This document shows positions 12,752 to 54,527 of a stretch of DNA of 64,000 bases, one piece after another. Each line of letters begins with the position of its first letter. Within the stretch, counting starts at the first letter, position 1. The notes beneath the pieces were generated by a model. That model had not been told where the DNA came from. It was given only the letters and a program-made list of their open reading frames with translations, and searched no databases. This stretch comes from Cyanocohniella sp. LLY (GTDB taxonomy: Bacteria; Cyanobacteriota; Cyanobacteriia; Cyanobacteriales; Nostocaceae), in the NCBI GenBank assembly GCA_022241785.1, contig JAKOMP010000008.1, positions 1 to 64,000 of the forward strand, in the 5' to 3' direction. The position numbers and the translations under genes are program-made.

Positions 12752-12752
12752 A

Positions 12753-21690: not shown

Positions 21691-24600
21691 GTGTTACAAA
21701 TCAATACAATTGACATTCAAGGGTCTATCTTTGAAGCTCAACACCTTCAAGAATGGCTGAATAGCGGAATAGATCAAGAAATCTTCGCTCTCAATGCCAA
21801 ATCACTTTCCGGCACAGTACCTTATGAATTTCTCATTTACAGCCCGAATATCTCACGCCGTAACGATGGACGACTCAGGGATGGCGACTTAAGAAGATAT
21901 AGCCACTTGGAGTATGGGGGGTGGTGGTGCAATGGCATTGATCCCCTGAACGATTACAAGTTAATGATTTGGGGTTGCTTCAAACCCAACCAACCCAGGC
22001 GTGACCAGAAAAAAATTCATAAATTTCTCAAGTACGAGCATCCCCCCAAAGAACAGACACGAGCATTCTTCCTGCAAATTACAAAACAGCATTGGGCGAA
22101 AATCTCAGACCGATGCAGCATTCCCATTACAAAAGAAGATTTGCAGCATCCTGGCGGTTTCTGGCATTGGGTTTGGCTACATAATGTCCCTGTGACGATT
22201 GTTGAGGGGGTCAAGAAAGCAGCTGCATTACTGTCAGCTGGTTATGCGGCGATTGCGCTACCTGGGGTGAACGCTGGTTATCGGACTCCCCAAGATGAAT
22301 ACAGCATCGCTATTGGCAAACCTTTCCTCATCCCTGACCTGAAACATTTCGCCACTGTGGATAGGCAGATGAACATTTGCTTTGACCAAGATTCCAAGCC
22401 AGAAACAGTGCAACGAGTAAAAACCGCTATCAATCGCATGGGGCGTTTACTCATGGCAGAGGGTTGCGAAGTCAAAGTCATTGAATTGCCGCCGGGAGGG
22501 GAGAAGGGCGTTGATGATTTTATCGTGGCTGAAGGTCGAGAGGCGTTTCACGCTCTTTACAATACCGCCGAAGTCTTGCAGATGTGGGAAATCAAGCTGT
22601 TTACCATCCTCACTTACCCGCCGGCGATCGCACTCAACCAGCGTTTTCTAGGTCAAATTCTTGTACCAGAAGGCGAAAAGCTGATTGTTTTGAAGGCTCC
22701 CAAAGGCACAGGAAAAACCGAATGGCTAGCTGGTGAGGTGGCGAAAGCACACGATCAAGGACGGAGAGTGCTAATTGTCACTCATCGCATCCAACTAGGA
22801 GAAGCGTTATGTAATCGTTTTGGTGTCAACTATGTTACTGAAATTTATGGCTCAGAAACAGGTGATTTACTCGGCTATGGCGTGTGTATTGATTCACTGC
22901 ATTCTGAAAGCCAAGCTAAATTTAACCCCAATGACTGGTCTAATGATGTGATTATCATCGATGAATGCGACCAGGTGTTCTGGCATCTGCTCAACTCTAA
23001 AACCGAGATAGCTAAACGCCGGGTAGCGGTACTCAATAACCTCAAGCAATTAGTTCAAAATGTTCTCAGTAGCCAGCATGGTAAAATTTACCTGTCTTCG
23101 GCAGATGTCTCAGATACAGACGTTAAATATATACTGTCTCTGGCTGGTGAATACCGCGTTAACCCCTTTGTAATTGTCAATAACTATCGTCCTGATTCCG
23201 GCAAATGTTACAACTACAGTGGCAACGATCCCCGAAAATTAGTCGCGGCGATGGATAAAGCCTTGGCCACGGGAGGCCATCACATACTTTGTTGCTCTGC
23301 TCAAAAAGCCAAATCACGATGGGGGACTAAGACATTAGAAGAACGGTTTCGCCGGAAATTCCCAAACTTGCGAATTTTGCGAATTGATAGCGAGTCAGTA
23401 GCCGACCCGACACATCCAGCTTACGGCTGCATTGGGCATCTGAATGAAATTTTGACACAATATGATTTAGTGATTGCCTCGCCTAGTTTAGAAACCGGGG
23501 TTTCTATCGATATCGTTGGCTACTTTTCTACCGTATGGGGCATTTTTCAGGGAGTGCAGCCAACTAACTCGGTGCGCCAAATGTTAGCCAGATTACGAGA
23601 AACTGCCGACCGTCACATTTGGGTGAGAAAACGCGGTTTCGGCAGAATTGGTAACGGGATGACTGCAATCGGGGCGTTATTGCGAAGCCAACACTCAGCA
23701 ACTCGCGCTAATATTGCCCTCTTGTCCGCAGCTGATAATGAGGATTACAGCTACATTGACCAGAATTTTCAACCAGAGTCGTTACAGACTTGGGGAAAAC
23801 GTGCTTGTGTCATTAATGCCGACATGAAATGTTATCGTGATGCTGTGCTGAAAGGTTTGCTAGCTGATGGCTACAAGATTTTAGATGCCGCCGATATAGA
23901 TGACGATGAAGGTAAAAAAATTCTAGAATCGGTCAAGGCAGTATCCCTTAGTGTGTACACAAACGAGTGTGAAGAAACTGCTGCTGTGGAAATTCCCACA
24001 GATACTGAACTCAAGAAAATTAAAGAAAAACGTGCGAAAACTCGTACCGAACGCCAGCAAGAACGCAAAGCAGATTTAGCCCATCGTTACGGTATTGAAG
24101 TCACAGCTGACTTAATCCAGAAAGATGATGACGGCTGGTATCCCCAACTGCGGATGCAATATTATCTGACACTGGGGCGAGAATTTCTCACAAAGCGTGA
24201 TGCCAAAAGAGCTAAGGCACAAGCAGAGGCGGGTAATGGTGCAATTTGGAAGCCCGATTTTAATCAGCAACAGCTGATGCCTGCGGTGATGCTCATAGAA
24301 GAACTCAAAATCCTTGAACTTCTTACCCCAGGGGTGAAACTTCGGGGTTCTCATCCTGAATTACTGGCATTGAAAGCAATAGCAGTCCAGCATCGGTATA
24401 CTATCCAAAATTACTTGAGGATTACGATTTCTGATAAACAGACCCCCATTGCGATCGCCCAAAAATTATTAGGCTGTATGGGGCTAAGTTTAACCTATGT
24501 CGGTCGGTTAGGTTCTAGAAAAAATCGTGAGCAAGTTTACGAGTTTATTTCCCCCGATGATCAGCGCGATTTAATTTTCCACCAATGGCTAGAGCGAGAT

Positions 24601-24726
24601 GAATCAGCTCATAAGTTGAGTGAGCAAAAAGAAGCAAATTCTTATTTGGTGTCACCCACTAGTAATAAAGAAATGATCACTCAACTAAGTGACACGACAC
24701 CAACAACCCCCCAAACGGTTATTTAA
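21691..24726 (+). CDS. CyRepA1-like plasmid replication protein (DUF3854/TOPRIM-like plus helicase)
   Basis: A 1011-aa protein with a GTG start. Residues about 60-300 form the DUF3854 region (GGWWCNGIDPL, KFLKYEHPPKE, VPVTIVEGVKKAAALLSAGY, then KGVDDFIV), a primase/TOPRIM-like module. A superfamily 2 helicase follows, with Walker A KAPKGTGKTE near 335, DEAD-type IIIDECDQVF near 421 and motif VI-like ASPSLETGVSIDI near 595. The C-terminal third is charged. This architecture matches CyRepA1, the replication initiator of Synechocystis plasmids such as pSYSA. It is probably the initiator of this replicon. The 3' end is duplicated in tandem just downstream. Confidence 0.82.
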   Translation: MLQINTIDIQGSIFEAQHLQEWLNSGIDQEIFALNAKSLSGTVPYEFLIYSPNISRRNDGRLRDGDLRRYSHLEYGGWWCNGIDPLNDYKLMIWGCFKPNQPRRDQKKIHKFLKYEHPPKEQTRAFFLQITKQHWAKISDRCSIPITKEDLQHPGGFWHWVWLHNVPVTIVEGVKKAAALLSAGYAAIALPGVNAGYRTPQDEYSIAIGKPFLIPDLKHFATVDRQMNICFDQDSKPETVQRVKTAINRMGRLLMAEGCEVKVIELPPGGEKGVDDFIVAEGREAFHALYNTAEVLQMWEIKLFTILTYPPAIALNQRFLGQILVPEGEKLIVLKAPKGTGKTEWLAGEVAKAHDQGRRVLIVTHRIQLGEALCNRFGVNYVTEIYGSETGDLLGYGVCIDSLHSESQAKFNPNDWSNDVIIIDECDQVFWHLLNSKTEIAKRRVAVLNNLKQLVQNVLSSQHGKIYLSSADVSDTDVKYILSLAGEYRVNPFVIVNNYRPDSGKCYNYSGNDPRKLVAAMDKALATGGHHILCCSAQKAKSRWGTKTLEERFRRKFPNLRILRIDSESVADPTHPAYGCIGHLNEILTQYDLVIASPSLETGVSIDIVGYFSTVWGIFQGVQPTNSVRQMLARLRETADRHIWVRKRGFGRIGNGMTAIGALLRSQHSATRANIALLSAADNEDYSYIDQNFQPESLQTWGKRACVINADMKCYRDAVLKGLLADGYKILDAADIDDDEGKKILESVKAVSLSVYTNECEETAAVEIPTDTELKKIKEKRAKTRTERQQERKADLAHRYGIEVTADLIQKDDDGWYPQLRMQYYLTLGREFLTKRDAKRAKAQAEAGNGAIWKPDFNQQQLMPAVMLIEELKILELLTPGVKLRGSHPELLALKAIAVQHRYTIQNYLRITISDKQTPIAIAQKLLGCMGLSLTYVGRLGSRKNREQVYEFISPDDQRDLIFHQWLERDESAHKLSEQKEANSYLVSPTSNKEMITQLSDTTPTTPQTVI

Positions 24727-27239: not shown

Positions 27240-27578
27240 ATGCTTATGAAAGATAAACAATCAATCAAACCAGTCAATCAATCTCTGGGTAAAAGTGCAT
27301 CAATTGGCATCTTTACAGGATTTCAATTTGCTGTTTCTCTTGTGTCATTTGGAGTAGGTTTTTTCATTGCTTTTTTCTTTCGCTTAGGGATGATATGGAG
27401 CATATTAATTGGTCTTTGGTTTAGTGCGACGACAATAACTTTGTCTGGAAAAAAACCTTATTTGTTTTGGTCAAAAATTTTCCCAGGGGTTCCCATGTGG
27501 ACGCGTGGTTATGTCCGATATTCTTCCCCTCAAGAGAAGAAAAAAGCCGGCTTGAAAAAACTTCCTAAATCATGGTGA
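27240..27578 (+). CDS. VirB3-like inner-membrane protein
   Basis: A 112-aa protein with two adjacent hydrophobic helices (about 27-48 and 50-68 from the chosen ATG) and a basic cytoplasmic tail. Position between pilin and VirB4 ATPase, size and two-helix topology match VirB3/TrbD. Start choices are GTG 27237, ATG 27240 or ATG 27246. It overlaps the VirB4 gene by 7 bp. Confidence 0.65.
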   Translation: MLMKDKQSIKPVNQSLGKSASIGIFTGFQFAVSLVSFGVGFFIAFFFRLGMIWSILIGLWFSATTITLSGKKPYLFWSKIFPGVPMWTRGYVRYSSPQEKKKAGLKKLPKSW

Positions 27579-30313
27579 AAACAACATCTAAGAACAAAAC
27601 TAAAAAACTCAGCCCTTTCGAGGATGTATTAGACTTGACAACGCTTGTAAGGCTAAGGAAGGGAGGATATACTATTGGTGCTTATTTACTGAGTAAAAAG
27701 CAAGTAGGCGATACTAATAATACTTTGCAATTGGTTTTCGGCTATGCTTGTACAGGCTTTAATCCTTTATTTAATTCAGACGAACAAGTAGAAGCGATTT
27801 CCCATGCTTTTGAGAATGGGTGCAAAGAAATACCACCCGGTGAAAAATTCACATTCCGGTGGAGTTCATTGTGTGATGAAGAGGAAGCTGTTGAACGTTT
27901 TCGCCATCGTTTAAACAATCCTGTCAATGATGAAAGCGAGTTTTTAGACTGGGGTCAACTAGCCCGAATTCAAGAGTTAACCAGAGAAAAACAACGGAAA
28001 AATATCACTCTCAATATTTATACTACTTTTACCATTAAACCAGGAGGAACAGAAGCAGGCGATTCAGTTGATAGAGCCATAGTTAAGCTATCCAATTTCT
28101 TACAGCGTAGATTTACACCCACGGGCGCAACTGAGTTAACAAGAAAAGCGATTATTCAAATTCTGGAAAAAGCCATAAAGGTTTCACTCAGACATCAACA
28201 AATATTGTCGGAAATGGGTTTATTTCCCTCTCCTAAATCCGAAAAGCAACTTTGGAGAGATTTAACTTACAATGTGGGAGGCAAATTAGTAAAACTCCCT
28301 CACACCCTGGTTTTTGATGAATCTGGTTTGAGAGAGGAATTTAACGAAACTGAACCAGAAGACTCACAACATATTGATCAGGCTCATGCAACCTCTGTAC
28401 TTTTGAACAATGGTATACCCTACGCAGATCGGCAGTGGGTATGTCTGCCGACTCCAAACAATGGTAAAAAGTATGTAGGGGTAATGACGCTAACCCAAAA
28501 GCCAGAAGCATTTGCTGACACAGCAAATCAAGTGCGTTTTTTGTGGAATATATTCGCCCGTGATACCATTCACGATATCGAGATAATTACAGAGATTAGC
28601 CCTGCGGATCAAAAGCTGACTAGGCTAACTCAGCAAATGATTACCAGGCGATCGCGCAATGCTGAGATCAATGCTAGCAAAAAAACCATTGACGTAGCAT
28701 CGCAGATTAACACTGAATGGTCTGTAAATGCCCAAAAGCAACTCTATACGGGTGATGTACCGGAAAATTTAGCTCTGATTGTCTTAATTTACCGCGACAC
28801 ACCAGAAAAAATTGACGATGCTTGCAGGCTGATTTCTGGCTACGTCAACCAACCAGCAGAACTAACCCGTGAAACTCAATACGCTTGGTTAATTTGGCTA
28901 GAAACGTTGTTACTAAAACAAAAACCACAACTAACCAGCCCTTACAACCGACGAGTAACATTTTTTGCTAGTGAAGTAATCGGCTTAACTGCTGCTGTAC
29001 AGAATGCTAAGGCCGACACGCAGGGGTTTGAATTGATTGCTGATGAGGGACACTCACCAGTCAAAATTGACTTGACCAAAACCAAAAATATGATGGTCAT
29101 TGGTACTACTGGAAGTGGGAAATCAGTTTTAGTCTCATCTATTATTGCTGAGTGTTTGGCTGTGGGTATGTCAATACTAATGATTGACTTGCCTAACGAT
29201 GATGGTTCAGGTACGTTTGGAGATTTCACACCGTACTACAAAGGATTTTACTTTGATATTTCCAAGCAATCGAACAACCTTGTACAACCTTTAGACTTGT
29301 CAAAAATCCCGTTAGAGCAAAGAGAAGATAGGGTAAAAGCGCATCGCAACGATGTCAACCTGATAGTCTTACAGTTGGTTTTGGGTTCACAGCAGTTTGA
29401 TGGCTTCCTCGCTCAAACAATCGAGTCATTGATTCCCTTGGGGACAAAAACTTTCTACGAAAATCCCGATATTCAACGACGATTTGAGTCGGCTAAAAAA
29501 CAGGGGCTGGGGTCTGCTGCTTGGGCAAACACTCCTACTTTAGTTGATATGGAGCAGTTTTTTGCCGCAGACTGCATTGATTTGGGTTATGAAGATGAAA
29601 ATGTTGATAGAGCATTGAATTATATTCGCTTGCGACTCCAGTATTGGAAATCTAGCTCCATAGGTGATGCCATTTGCAAACCTTCTACCTTTGAAACAGA
29701 CAGTCAACTAATCACATTTGCATTAACTAACTTGCAATCGGGTAAAGATGCTGAGGTATTCGGGATGTCTGCTTATATTGCAGCATCACGGCAATCATTA
29801 TCCTCGCCTAATAGTGTGTTCTTTATGGATGAGGCAAGTGTTTTGTTACGCTTTCCTGCTTTATCTCGGCTAGTAGGTCGTAAATGCGCTACTGCCCGTA
29901 AGTCAGGATGCCGCATTATTCTAGCGGCTCAAGATGTTATCTCTATCGCCAAGTCGGAGGCAGGAGAGCAAATATTACAGAATATGCCTTTACGGTTGAT
30001 TGGTCGCATTGTCCCAGGGGCTGCGAAAAGCTTTTCTGAATTACTCGGCATTCCCAGGGAAATTATTGACAAAAACGAGACTTTCACCCCAAACATCCAA
30101 CAGCTATATACATTGTGGCTGCTGGACTATAACAACAAATACATTAGGTGTCGCTATTACCCGTCTTATCCCCTCCTTGCCCTGGTCGCCAACAGCCGAG
30201 AAGAACAAGCCACACGAGATAAGTTTAAAAAAATTTACAGCGATAAATTTACATGGGTGGCAGAATTTTCTAAGCATTATGTTGAGTGCATTAGGCAAGG
30301 TAAACCACTATGA
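27572..30313 (+). CDS. VirB4/TraC-like T4SS ATPase
   Basis: A 913-aa hexameric ATPase that drives pilus assembly and substrate transfer. The N-terminal 480 residues form the membrane-interacting VirB4 domain. The motor domain has Walker A GTTGSGKS near 511, Walker B SVFFMDEASVLL near 750, and the downstream LAAQDVISI box near 790. Length and motifs are complete. Because no VirB11 gene is seen, this protein and the coupling protein may supply all ATPase power. Confidence 0.92.
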   Translation: MVKTTSKNKTKKLSPFEDVLDLTTLVRLRKGGYTIGAYLLSKKQVGDTNNTLQLVFGYACTGFNPLFNSDEQVEAISHAFENGCKEIPPGEKFTFRWSSLCDEEEAVERFRHRLNNPVNDESEFLDWGQLARIQELTREKQRKNITLNIYTTFTIKPGGTEAGDSVDRAIVKLSNFLQRRFTPTGATELTRKAIIQILEKAIKVSLRHQQILSEMGLFPSPKSEKQLWRDLTYNVGGKLVKLPHTLVFDESGLREEFNETEPEDSQHIDQAHATSVLLNNGIPYADRQWVCLPTPNNGKKYVGVMTLTQKPEAFADTANQVRFLWNIFARDTIHDIEIITEISPADQKLTRLTQQMITRRSRNAEINASKKTIDVASQINTEWSVNAQKQLYTGDVPENLALIVLIYRDTPEKIDDACRLISGYVNQPAELTRETQYAWLIWLETLLLKQKPQLTSPYNRRVTFFASEVIGLTAAVQNAKADTQGFELIADEGHSPVKIDLTKTKNMMVIGTTGSGKSVLVSSIIAECLAVGMSILMIDLPNDDGSGTFGDFTPYYKGFYFDISKQSNNLVQPLDLSKIPLEQREDRVKAHRNDVNLIVLQLVLGSQQFDGFLAQTIESLIPLGTKTFYENPDIQRRFESAKKQGLGSAAWANTPTLVDMEQFFAADCIDLGYEDENVDRALNYIRLRLQYWKSSSIGDAICKPSTFETDSQLITFALTNLQSGKDAEVFGMSAYIAASRQSLSSPNSVFFMDEASVLLRFPALSRLVGRKCATARKSGCRIILAAQDVISIAKSEAGEQILQNMPLRLIGRIVPGAAKSFSELLGIPREIIDKNETFTPNIQQLYTLWLLDYNNKYIRCRYYPSYPLLALVANSREEQATRDKFKKIYSDKFTWVAEFSKHYVECIRQGKPL

Positions 30314-33400: not shown

Positions 33401-34888
33401 ATGACGCAAATACAAGAATCTCCACAAATAGAAGTACAGGATATAGTACAAAAGCCAGGCGAAATACCCGATACACTACCAACGCCAGAAGAGATACAAG
33501 ATAAAAATAACTTTGCCGCCATGAATGGGGTAAAAGCTCAAATAAAAGAAAGTAAATCCCCAGAAATACCTCAACCTGAAGAAATTGTCACTACTCGTAC
33601 AGTCTCACAAAACCCCATTTTAAAAATGGGTGTTATTGGTGGAGGAATACTGCTTTTTATCATGCTCATTGGTGGTGTAATCAATGGTTCCATGAATGCA
33701 TTGAATTTGACTACCACTAAAGAAATTGAACCTGCAAAGAACTCTCAAGAAGTGTTAGAAGAACCAGAAATTAAGGACGAGACAGGCGAAACCAAGACAG
33801 CTTTAGCTCTAACTAGTCAAAACTTAGAATTTAAAAAGATTCGTGACCAGAAGGCTCAAGTAGAAGCTACGCCCACGGCCACGCCTACACCTGTGGCTGT
33901 CGCGCCACCACCACCCCCATCTCCACCGCCAGTTCAAGCTACTAGGACTGTTTCTACTCAACCAGTACCACCGCCGCACAGATATACCACACCGCCCCCC
34001 GCGCCTGTTCCTACTCCTACAGTACCGCCAGTTTCTAGCACGGCAACACAAGCAAAAGCTCCGCCTGTAGATCCCATGCAGCAGTGGTTAGCAGTTTCTA
34101 ATATTGGTCATTATGGAACTTCAGAGCCAACAGATTTTACATCTTTGGCATCTGATGAATTGGAAAATCTTGAAGGTATTCAAGGTGGTTCAGGTAATCA
34201 ATTGGTTGATCAACAAGTTTCAAATCAGAACCTTAATTTAAATCCTGACCACAATGGGAAACGAGTTTTGGTAGGAAGCCGTGTAGAAGGTAGCTTAGAA
34301 ACTCCCATTGCCTGGAGTCGAAATACTCCACAACAAGAAAATCAAAATTATTTAATTCGATTAACTAAACCGTTACAAGCATTTGACAGCACAGAAGTAT
34401 TACCAGTAGGTTCTTATATTGTGGCTCGGCTCAATAGTTCTAATGAATCAGGATATGTGCAAATGCACGCTGTTTCTGCCTTAATTAACACAGATGGTAA
34501 AACAGAAGAAAAAAGTATTCCAGAGAACTCGGTTTTGATACTTGGTAAAAATGGCAATCTTCTGAAAGCCAAATCCCAAAAGGGTAGTGAATTAGGTGGT
34601 TCTTTGATGGCATCAGTATTATCTGGAGTAGCAAAGGCGGCGGAAATTCAAAATCGTCCTACTAGTCAATCAACTATTAACTCAATAGGTGTTTCAACTG
34701 TTACTACTAGTAATGATGATAAAAATTTAGTAGCAGGATTTGCTGAGGGCAGCATAAATGAGATGGTACGAAGAATGCAAACCGCAAATCAACAGCGATT
34801 ACAACAAATGCAGTCAGAAACCACAGTATTTGTTCTGGAATCAGGAACGTTTGTTCAGTTGTTTGTTAATCAAACTATCTTATTATGA
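33401..34888 (+). CDS. VirB10/TrbI-like core-complex protein
   Basis: A 495-aa protein that links inner and outer membranes. It has a cytoplasmic N-terminus, one transmembrane helix near 73-92 ([20 protein letters not shown]) and a Pro/Thr-rich periplasmic spacer (about 155-225) with PPPPPSPPP. The C-terminal beta domain has [25 protein letters not shown] and the final [10 protein letters not shown]. All features fit VirB10/TrbI. It overlaps the next gene by 4 bp (ATGA). Confidence 0.85.
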
Positions 34889-35796: not shown

Positions 35797-37041
35797 ATGC
35801 AATTCATCTGGAAAATTTCAAAACCCAGCAATGTTTTTATTCCGAATCAAATGAAATTTAAAAAATATTTGTTAGCTACCACTGCTTTAATTTCGGTAGC
35901 TTTACAACCACAACCATCTCTAGCTCAACCGCCAACAATTACCTATTCTGTAGGTAAATATCAAGTCCAAGCGCCTGACTGGGCAAAGATAACTTGGGGA
36001 ACCCTGCCACCAGTCCCAGAATCTGGTTATCTCAGCATCCCTAAAAATTTAATTCCCCAGTTTGGCTATGACCCCTCTCGTTCATGGTCAGCAGGACAAC
36101 AAGTAGATTCTATAGTCATGCTGGGAGATGTGGAAGATGCTTTCAGGCTTGATTCATTTACCCTCAACCAGATATCTGCAATTACTCCAGCCAACAGTGC
36201 GAAACTGACACTTAAAGACTTTGGGTTGATGGAATGGCAAACCCCTAAATCTTTAGTGAAAGCCATACCGAGTTTGGGAAACCTCAATGTCAATCAGGTT
36301 CAACCCATCCGGGATTTATTTATTAAAGCGGGTGTTTCTGGTGGTGGTAAAATTGGTCAAATTATTAATTACAATCCCAAAGCTGCCAATCTGACTTTAG
36401 GTAACCTTGATTTAAGTAAGTATTCTCTGAACTCAATTCCCCGCTTGAATATAACTCAAATTAATAAATTCTCAGGTTGGCAACGTAGTTTTATTAATCA
36501 AGTTCCCAACCTGGATCAAGTACCCTTTGATAAAATGCCACTGCCAATTCAATCTGGGACTGGGGTAGTTGGCGTGGCCTCGGTTGTACTGGGGAAGGCG
36601 GAACGCGGGGACGCAAAAGTAGGCGCTAACTACTTTGTTTCTGGCAGTGTTAACAGTCGCAGTGCAACTATTCCCGTAGCCTGTGAAGCTGGTAAGGAAT
36701 GCGCCTACATGGAATTAGGTGATTTAGTAGGGCAAGGGGGATCACTTTATGGTAAGCGTTGGGCATCCGGTTTATCCCAACAGGTAAAAGGAGGGTTCGG
36801 CTTTTTAAGTGTTGTCAATGGTGGAAAGGAGCCTACAGGCAGACTTGTTTATGGACCTGGGTTCAAGGTGGCTTTGACTGGGGTAAACGAATCAAAGGGT
36901 ACGGCTGACTTTGGCTTGTTTTTTAGGATTTGTGTTCGACCGCCTTTGGGCCCCCGAACTTGCACCCCCTATTTTATCGGACCCATTCCTTGGATACCTG
37001 TTAGTGAGAATAACCTTGTGATACTGGGGGCGGGAGGATGA
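35797..37041 (+). CDS. Secreted protein of unknown function in the transfer operon
   Basis: A 414-aa protein. A typical signal peptide begins at the internal Met19 (MKFKKYLLATTALISVAL, cleavage near SLAQ). The ATG at 35851 may therefore be the true start, although GGAAAA precedes 35797. The mature part has helical repeats rich in Leu/Asn and a C-terminal domain with paired Cys (CEAGKEC, CVRPPLGPRTC). It lies between the VirB9-like and coupling-protein genes and overlaps the latter by 4 bp. It may be a cyanobacteria-specific envelope component of the channel; no family was recognised. Confidence 0.65.
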   Translation: MQFIWKISKPSNVFIPNQMKFKKYLLATTALISVALQPQPSLAQPPTITYSVGKYQVQAPDWAKITWGTLPPVPESGYLSIPKNLIPQFGYDPSRSWSAGQQVDSIVMLGDVEDAFRLDSFTLNQISAITPANSAKLTLKDFGLMEWQTPKSLVKAIPSLGNLNVNQVQPIRDLFIKAGVSGGGKIGQIINYNPKAANLTLGNLDLSKYSLNSIPRLNITQINKFSGWQRSFINQVPNLDQVPFDKMPLPIQSGTGVVGVASVVLGKAERGDAKVGANYFVSGSVNSRSATIPVACEAGKECAYMELGDLVGQGGSLYGKRWASGLSQQVKGGFGFLSVVNGGKEPTGRLVYGPGFKVALTGVNESKGTADFGLFFRICVRPPLGPRTCTPYFIGPIPWIPVSENNLVILGAGG

Positions 37042-38900
37042 CAACATCTCAAGAAGTTAGTATTGACCAATTTATTCCACCGGAGATGCAATCCTCATTT
37101 TTGTCTCCCGCCGGACTAGGATTGCTTGCCTGTGGGGTAGTAATTGTCATCGCCAAATATATTGATAGTCAAGGGGGAAAAGCTAAACTAGCTACAGCTA
37201 GATGGGGTGGTAGCGCTGAAAAAAAAGCGGCTCGAAAATTAGCTTGCAAGCAAATTCAGCAACGCAAGCATAACCGAGTATCTTTATTTATTGGCACTCC
37301 CAAAAATACTAAAGCTCTGATCGTCAATAACAAAAGAATTACCCAAATTCCTGAAGATACTTCCACGCTTTATTTACCAGACGCACAACGGGGGATTTTA
37401 GTTTGCGGTGGCCCTGGTTGTGGTAAGTCATTCTCAATGTTGAATCCCTTGGTACGGTCTGCGATTAACCAGGGGCTGCCGGTGATTTTGTATGACTTCA
37501 AATATAGCGAACAAGAATCAGCCACAGCTTCAGCTAAAGGACAAGCCCCAATCCTCGCCGGGTACGCTTTGGAACGAGGTTATGATGTCACTGTTCTTGC
37601 ACCAGGATTTAAAGAATCAGCGATCGCTAACCCGATAGACTTTCTTCGTAATAATGAAGACTCTGAGATGGCTAGACAACTTGCCATCACCCTTAACCGC
37701 AACTTTAAGCTAGGTTCAGATGAAGGAGGTAACAGTTTTTTCTCTAACGCTGGGGATCAGCTAGTGCAAGCAGTCTTTATGTTTGTAAAAGGGACTAAAT
37801 ACCCCGACATCATGATGTGCCAAGCTATTTTGGGACTGCCTAAATTAGTCAAGCGAATTGAAGAAGCGGAAAACCTAAATTTTATGGTCAGAGAAGCTTT
37901 CGCGCAATTTGTTTCTGTTGCTGGTAGTCCCGAAACAGCTGCTTCGATAGTGGGAACAGCCAGTGGTTTGTTTAGCAGATTTATGGTTCCCTCTGCCCTC
38001 GCCGCTTTTTGTGGTCAAACTAATATTCCACTGGACTTAAAGGGACGGCAGATGGTGATTTTCGGGATGAATAAAGAAAAGCGTGATGTTATTGCGCCTT
38101 TATTAGTTTCAATTTTGCATCTTTTAGTTAGTAGAAATGTAGCAACAAAACGCTCTTGTCCTCTGGTACTTGCTTTAGATGAATTACCTACTTTATATTT
38201 GCCTGCTTTGGTAGATTGGCTCAACCAAAATAGAGAGGATGGCTTGGTATCAATTTTAGGATTGCAAAACCTTTCAATGCTTGAGGAGGCTTACGGCGAA
38301 AACACAACTAATGCCATATTTGGGGGCTGTGCTACGAAAGCCTTTTTTAATCCCCAAGATGATATTGCTGCCGAGCGATTTAGTAATTTTCTGGGTGAGG
38401 AAGAAATCAAATATAAACAGCGTTCTCGTAGTTCTGGAGGCAAGGGCGGGGCAAGTATTTCTAATTCAGACCAAAACAGTACACGGAAATTATTCGATAT
38501 CAATCAATTTAATACTTTACCGGAGGGAAAGGCAGTAATTATTAACCCAGGGTTTCGCGCTCGTGGGCAAATAAGTATACCTGTATTACAACAAATTCGT
38601 ATTCCTAAGCATGAAATAAAATCTGAAGGTTTCAGTGTAAAAGCTTGGTACGAATTTCAAAAAGACTTAGCTTCTAAATCATCTCTTCATATACCTGCTT
38701 CTGAAGAAATGAATCTCCGACGCATGGAAGCTGAAAAACTGTTACCATTAACAGAAAATACAGCTAAATCTTCAGAAAAAGAAGCTCAGTTATTAGCTAA
38801 AAAAGCAGAACTAGAGTCTAGAAAATCACAAGTAAAAGCTCGACAAACACAAGCTAAATCTGCAACAGTTCAAGCAGTTAAAAAAGCTCACGACCTTTAG
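37038..38900 (+). CDS. VirD4/TraD-type coupling protein
   Basis: A 620-aa ATPase that docks the relaxase-DNA complex onto the channel. An N-terminal hydrophobic helix (about 24-42) is followed by the motor with Walker A GGPGCGKS near 123 and Walker B VLALDELPT near 378. The ILGLQNLSMLEEAYG box follows near 403. The C-terminal 60 residues are a Lys/Gln-rich coiled coil. Motifs and length fit VirD4/TraG. Confidence 0.9.
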   Translation: MTTSQEVSIDQFIPPEMQSSFLSPAGLGLLACGVVIVIAKYIDSQGGKAKLATARWGGSAEKKAARKLACKQIQQRKHNRVSLFIGTPKNTKALIVNNKRITQIPEDTSTLYLPDAQRGILVCGGPGCGKSFSMLNPLVRSAINQGLPVILYDFKYSEQESATASAKGQAPILAGYALERGYDVTVLAPGFKESAIANPIDFLRNNEDSEMARQLAITLNRNFKLGSDEGGNSFFSNAGDQLVQAVFMFVKGTKYPDIMMCQAILGLPKLVKRIEEAENLNFMVREAFAQFVSVAGSPETAASIVGTASGLFSRFMVPSALAAFCGQTNIPLDLKGRQMVIFGMNKEKRDVIAPLLVSILHLLVSRNVATKRSCPLVLALDELPTLYLPALVDWLNQNREDGLVSILGLQNLSMLEEAYGENTTNAIFGGCATKAFFNPQDDIAAERFSNFLGEEEIKYKQRSRSSGGKGGASISNSDQNSTRKLFDINQFNTLPEGKAVIINPGFRARGQISIPVLQQIRIPKHEIKSEGFSVKAWYEFQKDLASKSSLHIPASEEMNLRRMEAEKLLPLTENTAKSSEKEAQLLAKKAELESRKSQVKARQTQAKSATVQAVKKAHDL

Positions 38901-42017: not shown

Positions 42018-45000
42018 TTAGCGTCTAAAGCGGATTGATTGATTTTCTACATGTGACTCTAACAATGCAATTTCTTCCAATAACTCAATTTCTGTTGTCA
42101 ACTCCTGAATTTCTGTTTCTAGCGAAGACTCACTAGTGCTATTGAGCTTTTCTATCAGTTGAGGCTTATTCTCTCTAAGTACTTGACGAACGATTTTCAT
42201 CTTAGATAACTGGGGGTCATTCTTTTGCTGTGGCTGTTCAAAGTAGTCTGACACTTCTAAGACTAAATCTGCTAATTCATCCTGGTTTAAACCAAATATC
42301 ATCTCCCTGATTTGCAACTTTAGTCGTTGTTGGCGTTCTTCAGAACTCAACTTTTTAGGTGGTGCGGGTGGCGAATGTCGTTGTTTATTGTTGTGATTCC
42401 GCCACTCCTTCAAGGTTAATGCTTCACCATACACCGAATGGTATGCCAAAGCCCCCTGAGCCACAATTAAATCATCAACACCTTTATCTGGCCCTGGTAA
42501 TGTCACTACATTGACCAAAGCTCCTCGCTCCTCCAGTAGTCCACCGGTGCGCGAGATGGCAATATCTATATTTCGCTTTGTTTCTGGTCGCGTCTCATAG
42601 TCAAAGCAAAATGTCATCTCTCGTCCTGGCGTGGCGAAAACAGCTAACTCATCCATCAGCCTGGCTTTCACCCGTTCGCCAAACTCATCTTTACTGCGAT
42701 AACCAGCATATATCCCTGGCAGTCCAATTGCTGCATGACCTTGGCTTAACAAACTAGCGGCTTTCTTTGCTCCCTCAGTGATTGTCACTGGGAGGTTGTG
42801 CTGACAAACACAATACCAAAAACCACTCTTCTTATCGCTTTCAGTAGGCTTTACACCGGCTTTGTCATAGATACGCTCGGCAATTTCATCAGGTACATCT
42901 AACAAGAAAATACTTAATTCAGTTTTAGGTGGATGCTCATATTTAATGAACTTACCGGGTTTATCCACTTTTTCTCGTGGATTATTGGGTTTGTAGCATC
43001 CCCACAGTTTTCTGTCAGGTTCAACACCTGGTTGAAGGTCAGCAAAGGATTTTGGATTAACACCAGCATCACACCACCAGCCACCTGATTCAATATGAGC
43101 ATACTTACTCATAAATCCTGATGAAAGCCTGCCTGTATTGGTGCGGGGCAATTTGTCACTGTACATCAGGTATTCCCAAGCCTCATGCTCCCATTCCCTG
43201 GTTTGATGCAGACTTTTGAAGTTACGACTGGCAATTTCCGGGTGAATGGCGCTGTCTCTGACTAATTCTTGCCAGTGCTTTTCGTCAAGCCTTTCCGGTG
43301 CTTCACTAATATCACCAGGAGTCCAAAAAGCAACCTTTGGCTGTGGAGTTTTGGGAATTGGTTTTTTGATAACTGGTTTAGGAATAGCAATAGAAGGCAG
43401 AGGGACAGAGGGGCTGGGGGAAGAATTTGGCAGAGGGGCAGAGGTGCAGAGGGGCGGAGGGGAAGAATTTGCTAGGGGTGCAGAAGTTGGCAGAACAGAG
43501 GACGAGGACACATTGTAAAATTGCTCCTCGGCTCCCCTGCTTCCCCGCTCCTCCGCTTTTTTACTTCGCTGCTTCGCTAATTCCTGCTGCCGCAGTAGAG
43601 CCAGAGCATTTTCCTTAGCTTTACTAGACTGCGCCTGGGCTAGTAAATTATCTTTGTCCTCCGTGTACAGCTTCAATTCATACCTAGCACGGCTAACTGC
43701 TACATAAAAGCTTTCTTGTCCAATCGTGTTATCAGCAGCAATCAACACTCGGTCAGCTGTCTTACCCTGACTACTATATGTAGTGCTGACAATGGCATAA
43801 TCCAAGTGTTGCGCTTGTTGTAGATTGATAAATTCAGTTTGACCGCTATCCAAATACTCAATTTGTGCGTTAGACCCAGCAATGGCTGTAACTACAAATT
43901 CCTGACCGTTGCGCCGTCCTAATTGTCGGTCATTCTTCGTCCAGCGTAGGCGATCGCCCACGGCTATTTCAATGCTTTGTCTTTGGTAAACTGCTTGCTC
44001 AAATCCCGTATCTAAGAGAAATTCTCTGCCATCCTCAGCTTTCAGGGTTAAACGGTCATTATCCTTACCCACCACTTCATACAGTTTGCCCTTCTCCAAT
44101 CCCCGAAGCTTATAACTGCGGGTGGGCATGACTACATCCCCCAATTCAAAATTATGGGTGTAGCGCCTTTGTACTCTTGTCAAATCTTTGGCTTTTAACT
44201 GAGTAATGTTAATCCCAGTACCTAAACTTCCCTCAGCTTTCAGTTTTTCCCGAATGGCTTGGGTGATATCCAGTCTTTCAATATTGGTTCCTGCCAGTAC
44301 CAAGGTTCTGCCTCGTTGTTCTGGTGTAGCTGTTATGTAATCACGGGCAATTGCCTCAATCTTCAGTTCAGATGAAACGCTATGAATACAACCGTTTTCA
44401 TCTAACCGTGTAAATCCGTCCTGAATTCTCCCTTCAGCAATTAAATCTACTGCTAGTTTTAGCTCTGGGGCGCGTTGCCTTAAAGATTCATTCAGATAGC
44501 TAGTTTTGATTCCTGCCTGTTGCAGTGATTTAAATGGGTTGCCTGCTTCTACGGCTGATAACTGCTTTGTGTCTCCTACTAACAACACTCTGGCTTGTTC
44601 TTGAGTAGCTCGTTCTAACAGAGCGATCGCATCTTTGGCACTGAGTAACCCGGCTTCATCTACAATCCAGATTTGCTGAGGTTCAATCTCTTGGGATGGT
44701 TCAGAAACCAATAGTCTAGCAACAGTCTCGGCTTGAATATCCAACTCTTGACTCAGGACTTTGGCGGCCATCGAACTGGGAGCAAAGCCTTTGATGGTAT
44801 ACCCAGCATCGGTGGCGATTTTCTTTAATTCCTTGAGGGCGAAAGTTTTACCAGCACCAGCTACCCCTTGCCATGCAATAATCTGGTCTGTTGTGGTGGC
44901 TGCTGTTTCTACTGCGCGGCGTTGTCCTAAGTTTAAGGTGGTTTGCTCTAGATGGCTGGTAATTACTTCTGGGTGGGTGAGTGGGCTAACCTTGGACTGC

Positions 45001-46121
45001 CCATCTTGCATGAGTTTAATGGTTGCCAGTTCGCGGTTAACTGCTGCCAGGGTTGTATAGTCACGGGTTTGTGGGGATAGGCTCAGTAATTCGGGATTGG
45101 CTTTAATTAATGGTTCTATCTGGCTGACATCTGTGGCTAATCCTTGATTGAGGATGAATTTCTCTAATTCTTCTTGGGTGAAAGCGACATTTCTTTCTGA
45201 ACAGTGAGCGATGGCATCTTCTAATAGGTCATAGCTTACCCGCCTCGGCTGTAGTTCCGGTTGCGCCTCCCCAGGCTGAACAAATTTAATCCCCAGCGCT
45301 GCGGCTTCTTCTCTCCACTTGGCTTTTAATTCCTCTGGGTCAATTTTCTGTTTGATGCTCCTGGTGGTAGTCCACGCTTTTTCTCGTTCTGCCCAAGTTG
45401 CGTTTTCACCTACTGCTTCTAATATTTGTTGTCTGCGTTTGGAAAATTCTTGTAAATCTTCTGGTTGAAATCCTTTAATCTCAAACTGTCCATGATTCCT
45501 GGCTTCGACCTCGTACCCCAGTTTTTGTACTTCTACTGCGAGGTAGTTTTGATACACCATGCCGAGAAATTTCTTGTTTTTGAAGATTTCATCATTGAGG
45601 AGACTGTACCATTGCCCGTTCTCTAGCCGGGTCATATTCATGACTAGGGCGTGAGTATGTAGATGTGGGTCTAGTTTCCTGGTTTCAACATGGTCAAACT
45701 CTGCAACTACCAAATTATTGGTTTTCATAAGTTGTTGCCCGGCTTCAGTAGTTGCTCTGGTGTAGCTGTAGCGTTGTTCTATCAGTTCTAAGGTTTTTTG
45801 TACCGCTAACTGATGGGCTTGAATTAAACGCTCATCCCCACCCACTAACGCTTGTAAGCTAACGCTTTTCGGTGCAGAGAAAGTAAAATCCGTCGCTGCC
45901 CTGCGTTTTGATGAGTTTAATTTTCTAGCGCATAGATGTTGACTGCCATCTGGCGATAGTCCATTAACAATATTTGAAAAGACTTCTTGGTTATCAACTG
46001 CTCCTGATAGTCCTAACTTTTCTGCACCTTTCCCAGACCAGCGTGAAGTTCCTTCCTGGTAATAACCCTCCAGAAAATAATGTACTGCTTGCTGTGGTAG
46101 AGAGTTTTTACCTGTTAACAC
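42018..46121 (-). CDS. MobF relaxase-helicase fused to a DUF3854/TOPRIM-like domain
   Basis: A 1367-aa protein that nicks oriT, pilots the strand and unwinds DNA. The N-terminal TrwC-type relaxase has catalytic tyrosine candidates in YFLEGYYQEG near 15-21 and the metal-binding triad DPHLHTHALVMN near 155-166. A RecD-like helicase follows, with Walker A GVAGAGKT near 415 and Walker B WIVDEAGLL near 485. A Ser/Pro-rich linker (about 860-930) of low-complexity-repeat origin leads to residues 933-1232, which closely resemble the N-terminal DUF3854 region of the CyRepA1-like protein (ESGGWWCDAG, KFIKYEHPPK, LPVTITEGAKKAASLLSQGH, KGVDDLIV). The C-terminus is coiled coil. It overlaps the upstream small gene by 14 bp. 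Confidence 0.9.
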   Translation of the reverse strand: MLTGKNSLPQQAVHYFLEGYYQEGTSRWSGKGAEKLGLSGAVDNQEVFSNIVNGLSPDGSQHLCARKLNSSKRRAATDFTFSAPKSVSLQALVGGDERLIQAHQLAVQKTLELIEQRYSYTRATTEAGQQLMKTNNLVVAEFDHVETRKLDPHLHTHALVMNMTRLENGQWYSLLNDEIFKNKKFLGMVYQNYLAVEVQKLGYEVEARNHGQFEIKGFQPEDLQEFSKRRQQILEAVGENATWAEREKAWTTTRSIKQKIDPEELKAKWREEAAALGIKFVQPGEAQPELQPRRVSYDLLEDAIAHCSERNVAFTQEELEKFILNQGLATDVSQIEPLIKANPELLSLSPQTRDYTTLAAVNRELATIKLMQDGQSKVSPLTHPEVITSHLEQTTLNLGQRRAVETAATTTDQIIAWQGVAGAGKTFALKELKKIATDAGYTIKGFAPSSMAAKVLSQELDIQAETVARLLVSEPSQEIEPQQIWIVDEAGLLSAKDAIALLERATQEQARVLLVGDTKQLSAVEAGNPFKSLQQAGIKTSYLNESLRQRAPELKLAVDLIAEGRIQDGFTRLDENGCIHSVSSELKIEAIARDYITATPEQRGRTLVLAGTNIERLDITQAIREKLKAEGSLGTGINITQLKAKDLTRVQRRYTHNFELGDVVMPTRSYKLRGLEKGKLYEVVGKDNDRLTLKAEDGREFLLDTGFEQAVYQRQSIEIAVGDRLRWTKNDRQLGRRNGQEFVVTAIAGSNAQIEYLDSGQTEFINLQQAQHLDYAIVSTTYSSQGKTADRVLIAADNTIGQESFYVAVSRARYELKLYTEDKDNLLAQAQSSKAKENALALLRQQELAKQRSKKAEERGSRGAEEQFYNVSSSSVLPTSAPLANSSPPPLCTSAPLPNSSPSPSVPLPSIAIPKPVIKKPIPKTPQPKVAFWTPGDISEAPERLDEKHWQELVRDSAIHPEIASRNFKSLHQTREWEHEAWEYLMYSDKLPRTNTGRLSSGFMSKYAHIESGGWWCDAGVNPKSFADLQPGVEPDRKLWGCYKPNNPREKVDKPGKFIKYEHPPKTELSIFLLDVPDEIAERIYDKAGVKPTESDKKSGFWYCVCQHNLPVTITEGAKKAASLLSQGHAAIGLPGIYAGYRSKDEFGERVKARLMDELAVFATPGREMTFCFDYETRPETKRNIDIAISRTGGLLEERGALVNVVTLPGPDKGVDDLIVAQGALAYHSVYGEALTLKEWRNHNNKQRHSPPAPPKKLSSEERQQRLKLQIREMIFGLNQDELADLVLEVSDYFEQPQQKNDPQLSKMKIVRQVLRENKPQLIEKLNSTSESSLETEIQELTTEIELLEEIALLESHVENQSIRFRR

Positions 46122-51659: not shown

Positions 51660-54527
51660 ATGGAAACGCTTGCCCCTGGTGCGCGGATTGTTGCTAGAGA
51701 TGCAGAGTGGCTTGTAAAATCCACTTCAAGAACACCTAATGGTTCTGTGGTAATCGAAGTTGTAGGTGTAAGTGATTTTATTAAAGGTCGCACTGCACGG
51801 TTTGTCAAAGAATTAGAACAAGACCTAGAGGTTTTAGACCCGGAAAACACTAATTTAGTACCAGATAATACTTCTGGCTATAGGAATTCGCTGCTTTTTC
51901 TCGAAGCTCATCTCCGGCAGACTGCCCCCACTGATACTAATCTTTACATTGGTCATGAAGCAGCAATGGATGTGCTGCCTTACCAATTAGACCCAACGCT
52001 CAAAGCCCTTTCGATGCCGCGACAACGTTTGTTAATTGCAGATGCTGTTGGCTTGGGTAAAACTTTGGAAGCAGGAATTTTGGTTGCTGAGTTGATGCGT
52101 CGGGGACGAGCAAAACGCATTTTGGTTGTAACAACTAAAAGTATGCTGACTCAGTTCCAGAAAGAATTTTGGGTGCGTTTTACTATACCTCTGGTACGCC
52201 TTGATTCTGTCGGTATCCAACGCATTCGCTCTCGTATCCCCACAAACCATAACCCTTTCCACTACTACGATAAAGCCATTGTCTCGGTTGATACCCTCAA
52301 ACAAGACCGGGAGTATCGTACTTACATCGAGCAAGCTGAATGGGATGTAATAGTCATTGATGAGGCACACAACGTTGCTCGTCGGGGGCGTGGTAGCAGT
52401 GCTTCGTTGCGTTCTAAGTTGGCTGATCGTTTAGCAAGCCGTTCCGATAGTTTAATTATGCTATCAGCCACACCCCATGATGGGCGTGCGGAAAGCTTTG
52501 CTAGCTTGATGAATATGCTCGACCCAACAGCGATCGCTAACGAGTCGAACTACACTAAGGAAGATATTCGAGATTTGTACGTCCGGCGGTTTAAGAAAGA
52601 TGTTGTTGGGCAACTTCTCAAAAAATTCCCTGAACGTCAGGTTTTAGCACTGGAAACAAATGCTTCTGTAGAAGAAGAGGAAGCATTTGAAATTCTTAAT
52701 AACTTAAAGCTGGCTGGGATTGATGCGAAAGCTTCCACAGGTAAGTTGTTTAAAACTACTTTGTTAAAAGCGATGCTGTCCAGCCCAATGGCTTGTTTGG
52801 AGACAGTACGTAATCGCATCAAGCGAGTAAAAAACACTGATGATCAGCATTTAAATACTGATGTTGCCGAGTTAAGGGCTTTAGAATCAGCTTTGGAAAC
52901 TATTAATGATAGAAATTTTTCAAAGTATCAAAAGTTATTACAACTAATCAGTACAACCGAAGCTGGGGGGTTTGGTTGGAAGGGTACAGACCCAAAAGAC
53001 CGAATTGTAATCTTTACCGAACGTTTAGAGACGATGCGCTTTCTTAGGGAGAGTTTAAAGCGCGACTTAAAGCTGAAAGAGGAAGCGATCGCTACTCTTG
53101 ATGGGGGAATGCCAGATGTTGAGTTGATGGATGTTATCGAAGAATTTGGTAATGAAAAATCTCCGTTGCGGTTGGTGGTTGCTACGGATGTCGCATCGGA
53201 AGGGATTAATTTACATTATTTTTCGCACCGTCTCATACATTTTGATATCCCTTGGTCATTAATGGCTTTGCAGCAGCGTAATGGACGGGTTGACCGTTAC
53301 GGACAAGAGCAACAACCGCAAATTCGTTATCTTTTGACTCGCTCAAATAACAAAAAAGTGGATGAAGCAGAGCGTATTGTTAGCGTTTTAGTTAGGAAAG
53401 ACGAGCAAGCAATTAAAAATATTGGCGACCCTTCTGTTTTTATGGGGGTGTTTGATGTCGATAAAGAGGTGGAAGTGACATCAGCCGCCATAGAAGCAAT
53501 TGAGCAGGGGGAAACCGCAGAAAGTTTTGATGCACGGCTGCAACCGGATAAGAAGACAGAGGATGATGATAACTGGTTTGCCAATGTCTTTGGGGATGAG
53601 CCAGAAGTGAGTGAGGAACCCCAAGCACAAGCTGCTATGCAGAAAATGCCAAGTTTATTTTCCGATGATTATCATTACACGTTAGATGCATTGAAGGCAG
53701 TTAATGAGGAAAATCCTTTGCAATTACGTAGTTTTGAGGAAGAGTTGTTAATCGAATTAACAATGCCCAACGAACTGCGATCGCGTTTTGAGCGTTTACC
53801 AAGAGAAATTCAACCTGCATCGAATCAGGCATTGCGTTTGTCTGGCGATCGCAACAAAGTGATGCGCGAACTAGAGGAATCACGAAAATCTGAGGAACGC
53901 TGGCCCTCTATTCAGTATCTTTGGGAACTGCATCCGATAGTTGATTGGTTAAATGACCGTGGTATAACGCTTTTCGGCAGGCATCAAGCCCCCGTTATTG
54001 TTTTACCCCAACTACTGGCAAATGAGGTTGTATTTGTTATGTTAGGTATAATTCCTAACCGTCGTGGGCAACCTCTAGTCAACAAGTGGGTAAGTGTAGT
54101 GTTTCAAAATCAAAAAGTTAAGCATATAGAAGACTTTGAGGAAACGCTGCGCCGTACCGAATTTGATCGGGAGTCGATTCCCAATAAAATGTTGCCTGTA
54201 GATGAAAAACTTTTGAATTTGCGCGGGTTGGCAGTCACCGAAGCAGAAAAGAAAATGCTGGAGGAACTGAAGAAATTTGAGAATGCAATTAACATTCAAT
54301 TACAGGAACAATATGACCGTTTGGAAAAACTCAAGAGTCAACACTATCAACAATTAATATTGCGCTTTGCAGATGGTACTCCTTTAGTTGAACAGAAAAA
54401 ATCAAAAGAAGAACGCAGGATTGAGCAAATTTTTAATGACTATTGGCATTGGGTGGAGGATAGCATGACTACCGAACCTGCTCCATATATCAAAATTATT
54501 GCTGTGTTACAGGGGGGTACTGTATGA
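51660..54527 (+). CDS. SNF2-type helicase, DrmD-like, of a DISARM-like operon
   Basis: A 955-aa superfamily 2 helicase. Walker A ADAVGLGKTLEAG is near 127, DEAH in VIVIDEAHNVARRG near 233 and motif III LSATPHDGRAES near 270. Motif V/VI ATDVASEGINLHY and QQRNGRVDRYGQ lie near 510-545. The last 300 residues are charged and helical. In class 1 DISARM a DrmD helicase of this kind is followed by an adenine methyltransferase, as here (4-bp ATGA overlap). Function as helicase or translocase is firm; the DISARM label rests on operon context. Confidence 0.8.
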   Translation: METLAPGARIVARDAEWLVKSTSRTPNGSVVIEVVGVSDFIKGRTARFVKELEQDLEVLDPENTNLVPDNTSGYRNSLLFLEAHLRQTAPTDTNLYIGHEAAMDVLPYQLDPTLKALSMPRQRLLIADAVGLGKTLEAGILVAELMRRGRAKRILVVTTKSMLTQFQKEFWVRFTIPLVRLDSVGIQRIRSRIPTNHNPFHYYDKAIVSVDTLKQDREYRTYIEQAEWDVIVIDEAHNVARRGRGSSASLRSKLADRLASRSDSLIMLSATPHDGRAESFASLMNMLDPTAIANESNYTKEDIRDLYVRRFKKDVVGQLLKKFPERQVLALETNASVEEEEAFEILNNLKLAGIDAKASTGKLFKTTLLKAMLSSPMACLETVRNRIKRVKNTDDQHLNTDVAELRALESALETINDRNFSKYQKLLQLISTTEAGGFGWKGTDPKDRIVIFTERLETMRFLRESLKRDLKLKEEAIATLDGGMPDVELMDVIEEFGNEKSPLRLVVATDVASEGINLHYFSHRLIHFDIPWSLMALQQRNGRVDRYGQEQQPQIRYLLTRSNNKKVDEAERIVSVLVRKDEQAIKNIGDPSVFMGVFDVDKEVEVTSAAIEAIEQGETAESFDARLQPDKKTEDDDNWFANVFGDEPEVSEEPQAQAAMQKMPSLFSDDYHYTLDALKAVNEENPLQLRSFEEELLIELTMPNELRSRFERLPREIQPASNQALRLSGDRNKVMRELEESRKSEERWPSIQYLWELHPIVDWLNDRGITLFGRHQAPVIVLPQLLANEVVFVMLGIIPNRRGQPLVNKWVSVVFQNQKVKHIEDFEETLRRTEFDRESIPNKMLPVDEKLLNLRGLAVTEAEKKMLEELKKFENAINIQLQEQYDRLEKLKSQHYQQLILRFADGTPLVEQKKSKEERRIEQIFNDYWHWVEDSMTTEPAPYIKIIAVLQGGTV

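Follow-up and report, generated by a model that had tools for sequence, protein, structure and literature searches.

A cyanobacterial MobF relaxase-helicase fused to a predicted DnaG-type primase core

The window analyzed here, a stretch of 64,000 nucleotides from Cyanocohniella sp. LLY (positions 1-64000 of the 107,026-base contig JAKOMP010000008.1), encodes on its reverse strand a protein in which a MobF relaxase domain, a superfamily 1 (SF1) helicase and a C-terminal module containing the Pfam domain DUF3854 follow one another in a single open reading frame (42,018-46,121; Table 1). With moderate confidence, we propose that this protein is a three-part conjugation enzyme, whose C-terminal module is a DnaG-type core that primes the transferred strand. 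The protein has the features by which the MobF family is recognized, namely a TrwC-type HUH domain with paired tyrosines and three histidines, followed by a C-terminal SF1 helicase. It scores 331.8 bits against the NCBIfam MobF model (cut-off of 100), and both the HUH motifs (YY at 20-21, HLHTH at 153) and the helicase Walker A motif at 419 are intact. The DUF3854 match stands at 148 bits, compared to a curated Pfam cut-off of 23.

An initial annotation of this DNA had described the protein as a relaxase fused to the DUF3854/TOPRIM-like domain of CyRepA1, a plasmid replication protein encoded in the same window. The fusion is real: TrwC, AAA_30 and DUF3854 share one frame, and the C-terminal module is homologous to the CyRepA1 N-terminus. 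BLASTP aligned residues 945-1240 of the relaxase with residues 14-299 of CyRepA1 at 130 identical positions of 301 (43%, E 4e-69), a similarity so far beyond chance that the observation must be correct. The sequence boxes named in the annotation are present. CyRepA1 carries its DUF3854 at residues 157-284 (Pfam, 4.4e-48), and the CyRepA1 helicase domain of NCBIfam (NF042913) was found in the CyRepA1 protein and not in the relaxase. The extent given for the shared unit was refined, the homology standing but the boundaries lying at about residues 942-1255, wider than the Pfam domain.

Predicted fold of the C-terminal module

For relaxase residues 930-1262, AlphaFold2 was given an alignment of 77 rows, five of them viral and the others selected by hand from the module rows. 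The model has a mean predicted local distance difference test score (pLDDT) of 90.8 and a predicted template modeling score (pTM) of 0.88. All 11 Foldseek matches in the PDB at E <= 0.001 were DnaG structures, the best at E 1.4e-6. In VIA-align comparisons, the model matched DnaG of Bacillus subtilis (5guj) at a Z score of 14.6 over 228 residues (3.6 Å). This match spans model residues 13-326, and the N-terminal subdomain is thus covered as well as the TOPRIM part. The DnaG alignments extended over 218-235 residues at Z 12.6-14.6, and other DnaG cores, T7 gp4, T4 primase and Twinkle gave Z values of 11.3 to 14.0. A search of viral models returned phage primases and TOPRIM proteins as the best matches (best E, 1.8e-11). 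The corresponding model of CyRepA1 residues 1-320 (pLDDT 90.8) matched S. aureus DnaG at Z 14.3.

The TOPRIM half of the module was also aligned by hhalign with the cores of 26 cyanobacterial DnaG proteins (probability 95.7%, E 1e-8 for a single comparison, 75 columns), which placed FDYE of the module on FDAD and KGVDD on KDADE. A sequence search of the PDB had B. subtilis DnaG as its top match, weakly (E 0.12 and 0.028). A pairing of KYEHPPKT in the module with KYLNSPET in DnaG, seen only in a permissive realignment, is offered as a suggestion. The predicted models favor reading DUF3854, with the extension on its N-terminal side, as an RNA-polymerase domain of the DnaG type without a CHC2 zinc domain. 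The initial annotation spoke of a primase/TOPRIM-like unit; the predicted match to a TOPRIM primase agrees with this, but what is matched is the whole DnaG-type catalytic core. A TOPRIM unit standing alone was rejected, since TOPRIM proteins that are not primase-like aligned over far shorter stretches, of about 98-144 residues, and their Z scores did not exceed 9.0 (RecR 9.0, RNase M5 8.4, topoisomerases up to 7.6). An archaeo-eukaryotic primase, which the annotation had entertained as a second option, was likewise set aside, as the fold search yielded DnaG-type cores instead; no such family is among the Pfam matches of the relaxase, an absence that by itself excludes nothing.

The same comparisons bear on whether the module might be a TOPRIM nuclease or a topoisomerase-like domain (OLD or RNase M5 type) with a role in processing transferred DNA. 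The acids of the TOPRIM motif are common to these enzymes, and RNase M5 and topoisomerases do match the model (Z 6.4 to 8.4). Z values above 11, however, were reached only by DnaG, phage primases and primase-helicases, and their relative Twinkle, in alignments of 175-235 residues that take in the N-terminal half. We regard a nuclease or topoisomerase role as very improbable.

Conservation of the active site and purifying selection

Conservation was assessed in 64 MobF module rows and 32 CyRepA-type rows. The former are distinct sequences of more than 280 aligned residues, from which the incomplete or interrupted modules of loci L079, L099, L102, L117 and L141 were left out. The latter were defined by frame length and the absence of TrwC, and five others were set aside (L004, L005, L006, and two loci with a split relaxase gene, L082 and L138). 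E1116, D1174, K1213, D1216 and D1217 are present in 64/64 MobF modules. The first four are likewise found in every CyRepA-type row, whereas position 1217 is there occupied by Asp in 29 rows, by Glu in two and by Asn in one. The segment K1060-Y1061-E1062 is invariant in all 96 rows, and across these rows 31 of the 305 columns are invariant, E1116, D1174, K1213 and D1216 among them. At the third position of the DxD motif (1176), 22 of the CyRepA-type rows have Asp and 10 have Glu; FD-x-D is the sequence in the CyRepA1 proteins annotated on pSYSA (Slr7037 in PMC10079941) and pAQ1. The DAD/DGD motif was recovered from 24 of 30 cyanobacterial DnaG frames, and two of the other six were wrongly chosen frames.

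The initial annotation had named two outcomes that would speak against its domain assignment, a lack of any structural match to primase or TOPRIM folds and the loss of the acidic catalytic residues in all homologues. Structure prediction gave a match to the TOPRIM primase fold and the acids are retained in the homologues, one as Glu instead of Asp, so that neither outcome was observed.

Rates of nonsynonymous relative to synonymous substitution (dN/dS) were estimated by segment in 30 pairs of fused relaxases, counting only segments that gave a usable ratio. The median was 0.099 for the relaxase domain (28 usable pairs), 0.134 for the helicase (25) and 0.104 for the module (28), and it rose to 0.428 in the linker (22) and 0.433 in the tail (25). 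The module ratio being about that of the relaxase domain, the module is kept as strictly as the relaxase, under purifying selection. In pairs such as L161/L078, dS differs several-fold between domains (1.57 in the relaxase and 0.40 in the module), and this unevenness suggests domain-swapping recombination between relaxases.

Distribution of the fusion

Of 386 genomes sampled across the phylum, 16 have TrwC, as do 60 of 217 from the family. From these genomes 97 TrwC loci were examined, the window's own included, with the fragmentary TrwC rows in G101, G374, G397:C10, G466 and G552:C4 left out. The module lies in the same open frame as TrwC, with more than 190 aligned residues, at 67 of the 97 loci. 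The remaining 30 comprise one cut by a contig end inside the module, four with the module in the following frames, six that run off the contig end and 19 with no module. These 19 include weakly similar TrwC proteins (L147, L148, L150, L151 and L160) and several evidently shortened genes.

The plasmid database PLSDB was searched with the whole relaxase, and the best 60 rows of at least 5,000 records were considered. The first 50 (H1-H50) are all cyanobacterial, from Nostoc, Tolypothrix, Aulosira, Calothrix, Microchaete, Picosynechococcus, a Synechococcus and Acaryochloris. Three of them (H34-H36) end at query residue 846-873 and the other 47 extend into the module. The next ten rows (H51-H60) are non-cyanobacterial and stop at 844-857, short of the module. 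The fusion for which the initial annotation had proposed a search in other cyanobacterial plasmids therefore recurs, in divergent form also on pAQ6 of Picosynechococcus PCC 7002. Two PLSDB records that we examined are annotated 'MobF family relaxase', with the primase unmentioned. Among phage records, 3 of 50,697 match, over only 36% of the query, and are annotated 'primase'; relatives are encoded at five loci of IMG/VR.

It could be argued that the fusion is neutral, the module being a stray, functionless copy of a replication-protein domain, and relatives without the module do exist. This is contradicted by the low dN/dS and the strict conservation, and the fusion is present from Nostoc to Picosynechococcus and Acaryochloris plasmids; we find a neutral fusion scarcely credible.

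A separate observation concerns a 2,456-residue MobF relaxase in a genome of the same order (L152, 898-8265 in G308), which has DUF3854 and, near its C-terminus, DUF3991 and Toprim_2, a second and different Toprim unit on the same chain. Toprim_2-type domains are held to be active mobile-element primases (PMC5512222). If the Toprim_2 unit of L152 is such a primase, a MobF relaxase would have captured a primase for a second time.

The module as a separate gene and its phylogeny

The module also occurs apart from TrwC. In pNOS3756_1 (Nostoc NIES-3756), in Halotia branconii CENA392 and in pNsp_a (Nostoc ATCC 53789), a VirD4-type gene is followed by a small gene and then by a DUF3854 gene of 859-1,177 codons without TrwC. 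The separate modules are 53-69% identical to the window module or to its nearest fused relatives. The small genes of two of these plasmids are annotated 'relaxase/mobilization nuclease', and that of the third is hypothetical. The Pfam cut-off for Relaxase (MobA/VirD2-like) was passed by four of five small proteins, the fifth reaching 12.9 bits vs 24.6. Their motif-III region is without most of the expected histidines, so that these VirD2-like proteins may be degenerate. Small genes that seem to lack most of the histidine motif of active relaxases were noted at L204-L206, L233 and other separate-type loci, and for two of the three named plasmids a MOBV relaxase is present or given as their type.

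We compared 83 loci: the three named plasmids and the 80 loci, out of 186, that most resemble the fused module. Since the 80 were chosen on that basis, their ratio of cis to trans forms is no census. Forty-three of the 83 are fused and 19 belong to the separate type; in three, MobF and the module occupy successive frames, and the last 18 are cut or otherwise arranged. In the separate type, the small VirD2-like gene lies just upstream of the DUF3854 gene, and a frame resembling the type IV coupling protein (T4CP) is present at 19/19 loci (at L263 it and the small gene share one short frame). A T4CP-like frame is present at 20 of the 43 fused loci, over equally limited stretches. The use of the module both fused to a relaxase and detached from it is the strongest contextual argument for a job in DNA transfer.

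A tree of 51 modules (LG+G4; the divergent Picosynechococcus relaxases left out) placed the 46 conjugation-associated rows, 27 fused and 19 separate, apart from the five CyRepA-type rows (100/100). The separate forms are scattered on this tree, with L206 and L270 inside a MobF clade (100/97), and at least three changes between the cis and trans states are needed. When the separate modules were constrained to one clade, the approximately unbiased test gave p 0.058, just short of rejecting that arrangement, with a long-branch warning. Repeated switching between cis and trans is favored but not proven by these sequences. In a wider tree, the 64 MobF modules and three relatives group together (99/93), and the CyRepA1 of the window plasmid falls outside this group, yet on its side of the best-supported deep split. 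Descent from the plasmid's own replication protein, as implied by the wording of the initial annotation, is thus not what the tree indicates. An older origin of the MobF module from a CyRepA-like protein is compatible with these trees, which are unrooted and have long branches. Eight DUF3854 matches occur in the window's genome; one of these genes (L164, the same gene as L004, on another contig) groups with the separate-type conjugation module L233, and the others among L162-L164 are short or partial.

A broader proposal, to which we give an even chance, is that cyanobacterial conjugative plasmids evolved a conjugation-specific lineage of DnaG-type cores. It would alternate between a cis form fused to MobF, in which a single protein covalently attached to the DNA would nick, unwind, pilot and prime the strand, and a trans form, the latter a separate gene beside a VirD2-like gene in operons of the type IV secretion system (T4SS). 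A related unit heads the CyRepA proteins of many cyanobacterial plasmids, which would make DUF3854 with its extension a whole DnaG core.

The initial annotation had also considered that the fusion could couple transfer to vegetative replication, in which case the module would recruit or replace CyRepA1 at the plasmid origin. The relaxase and CyRepA1 of this one contig do share the module type. Yet 10 of 14 intact-fusion draft contigs have no second DUF3854 among the matches listed, the MobF and separate-gene modules group apart from the CyRepA-type rows, and the separate-gene form is located in T4SS operons. The coupling is unsupported by these observations, and we judge it improbable.

Proposed mechanism and points against it

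In the mechanism that we propose, the relaxase would nick the origin of transfer (oriT) and remain bound to the 5' end, while the SF1 helicase would unwind the plasmid in the donor. The relaxase would then be piloted with the single strand through the type IV channel, and the primase core would reach the recipient alongside the DNA. There it would lay primers for the complementary strand, on a strand delivered and circularized by the same protein, independently of any host primase or dedicated single-strand origin. Alternatively, the core may prime the replacement strand in the donor. The linker, which is of low complexity, fast-evolving and presumably flexible, could let the core reach along the strand. 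We infer primer synthesis, transfer of the intact protein, and a choice of template made without the zinc domain.

The tail ends in Arg-Arg (RFRR, GLRR and similar) in 49 of 65 fused relaxases with a true stop. Arginines at the C-terminus are among the signals known for type IV secretion, and by analogy the Arg-Arg tail is a possible translocation signal. Three relaxases with no detected module (L073, L107 and L145) also end in Arg-Arg. In many fused relaxases, long and probably helical tails follow the module (for example L065, L069, L076, L097 and L122); they evolve fast, some are visibly repetitive, and the frames reach 2,464 residues.

Several observations weigh against a priming function. 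Of the 64 MobF modules, 61 have Glu and three have Asp at position 1176. A CHC2 zinc domain is absent among the Pfam families listed for the relaxase up to E 1, and for this reason we do not file the module as a DnaG orthologue. The N-terminal half of the module gave no significant match to the DnaG profile (hhalign probability 0.2%), and this half therefore rests on the predicted fold. Some MobF relaxases, for example L073 and L107, are without the module and yet intact to the typical tail, so the module is not strictly required. The altered acid, the zinc domain that was not found and the module-free relaxases would all suit a module that retains the primase-core fold without making primers, and that serves as a part of the relaxosome for holding single-stranded DNA or docking proteins. 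Against this, the invariant columns common to the MobF and CyRepA-type rows include four of the active-site positions, the exchange of Asp for Glu conserves charge and is present in CyRepA-type rows as well, and the dN/dS of the module equals that of the relaxase domain. A purely structural role is a possibility that we consider unlikely, if deserving of some weight, and the priming core remains our preferred reading.

Relation to known systems

A relaxase and a primase on one chain are known from the MOBQ family, some relaxases of which carry a primase domain required for transfer (PMC12857230, PMC4595007, PMC5862659). RepB' primases with a relaxase domain ahead of them have been described, and RSF1010 itself encodes MobA in a gene of its own (PMC5862659). 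In these fusions (MobA of R1162 and relatives), the RepB'-type primase is of the archaeo-eukaryotic type and unrelated to DnaG, whereas in the window protein a DnaG-type core follows a MobF relaxase and helicase. During conjugation, relaxases stay covalently linked to the 5' end of the strand and are transferred with it (PMC5512222, PMC12857230, PMC4595007). TraC1 of RP4 and Sog of ColIb/R64 are Toprim primases of conjugative plasmids that are transferred in conjugation and prime the transferred strand (PMC5512222, PMC4595007). They are separate from the relaxase and resemble the separate-gene DUF3854 form, a likeness drawn from their description and not from sequence.

The order of relaxase and SF1 helicase in the window protein, with its intact YY and three-histidine motifs, is that of TrwC (R388) and TraI (F, R1). 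The non-cyanobacterial MobF rows H51-H60 lack a match into the module; R388, F and R1 were not identified among them. CyRepA1 and CyRepA2 combine DUF3854 with a DEXDc helicase. The N-terminal module of CyRepA1 is shared with the relaxase and has the same predicted fold, but the modules group apart. The DUF3854 domain has been described as related to Toprim, with its function called unknown (PMC10079941). The polyvalent proteins of conjugative elements are also many-domain proteins that join a Toprim primase to other early functions; the main text of the survey that describes them mentions neither DUF3854 nor TrwC and reports few such proteins in cyanobacteria (PMC5512222).

The initial annotation knew of no described relaxase with this fusion. 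We likewise found no description of it in the open-licence literature, subscription papers being mostly outside the search, and DUF3854 and relaxase were found together there only as unconnected mentions. Relaxase-primase fusion as such is known in MOBQ; the joining of MobF to a DnaG-type core, and the pair of cis and trans forms, appear undescribed. The MobF-DUF3854 domain order is visible to anyone running Pfam. MobF relaxases, such as those of F and R388, are textbook models of conjugation. Plasmids differ in what first primes the incoming strand: the RNA polymerase or the primase of the host, or a primase of their own (PMC4595007). If our proposal is true, a MobF relaxase equipped with a primase core would solve first priming in one protein, and could widen the host range. 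For DUF3854, which is part of the CyRepA proteins employed in cyanobacterial vectors, the proposal would yield a biochemical prediction, that of an RNA-polymerase-type primase core.

Genomic surroundings

The contig belongs to a 6.8-Mb draft genome of 244 contigs. No exact overlap was found between its ends, and the label of plasmid therefore rests on gene content (Table 1). A search for oriT upstream of the relaxase gene gave weak inverted repeats only.

Table 1. Coordinates in the window of the relaxase gene, its parts, the CyRepA1 gene and the transfer genes
Feature	Position	Strand	Evidence or remark
MobF relaxase-helicase-primase-like protein	42018..46121	-	single open reading frame, 1,367 residues, GTG start
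TrwC (HUH) relaxase domain, residues 10-275	45297..46094	-	Pfam TrwC, 1.8e-86
SF1 helicase AAA_30 core, residues 396-583	44373..44936	-	Pfam, 4.2e-57
Ser/Pro-rich linker, residues about 851-941	43299..43571	-	
DnaG-type primase-core module (predicted), residues about 942-1255	42357..43298	-	predicted fold, homology, conservation, dN/dS
DUF3854 (PF12965), TOPRIM part of module, residues 1101-1224	42450..42821	-	Pfam, 1.8e-43
TOPRIM Glu, E1116	42774..42776	-	64/64 MobF rows, 32/32 CyRepA-type rows
D1174-Y-E1176, at position of TOPRIM DxD motif	42594..42602	-	third position Glu
KGVDD, residues 1213-1217	42471..42485	-	K1213, G1214, D1216, D1217 in 64/64 MobF rows
C-terminal tail, residues 1256-1367	42021..42356	-	ends RFRR
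CyRepA1 plasmid replication protein	21691..24726	+	NF042913, 1.4e-133
Homologous module in CyRepA1, residues 14-299	21730..22587	+	BLASTP, model
HerA/TraG-type ATPase of transfer region	27572..30313	+	probably VirB4-like
TrbL/VirB6-like T4SS gene	31616-32674	+	24.7 bits, just below cut-off of 25.9
TrbI/VirB10-like T4SS gene	33401-34888	+	
VirD4/TraG-type coupling protein (T4CP)	37038..38900	+	

Two further groups of genes in the window are of note. Type III CRISPR (clustered regularly interspaced short palindromic repeats) genes lie at 10185-15637, with Cas10/Cmr2 at 10185-11780 and a RAMP-like gene, below the cut-off, at 14015-15637. At 51660-59383, an SNF2/DEAD-type helicase gene is followed by a gene for a 1,619-residue Eco57I-type methylase, and this pair is probably an anti-phage or restriction system.

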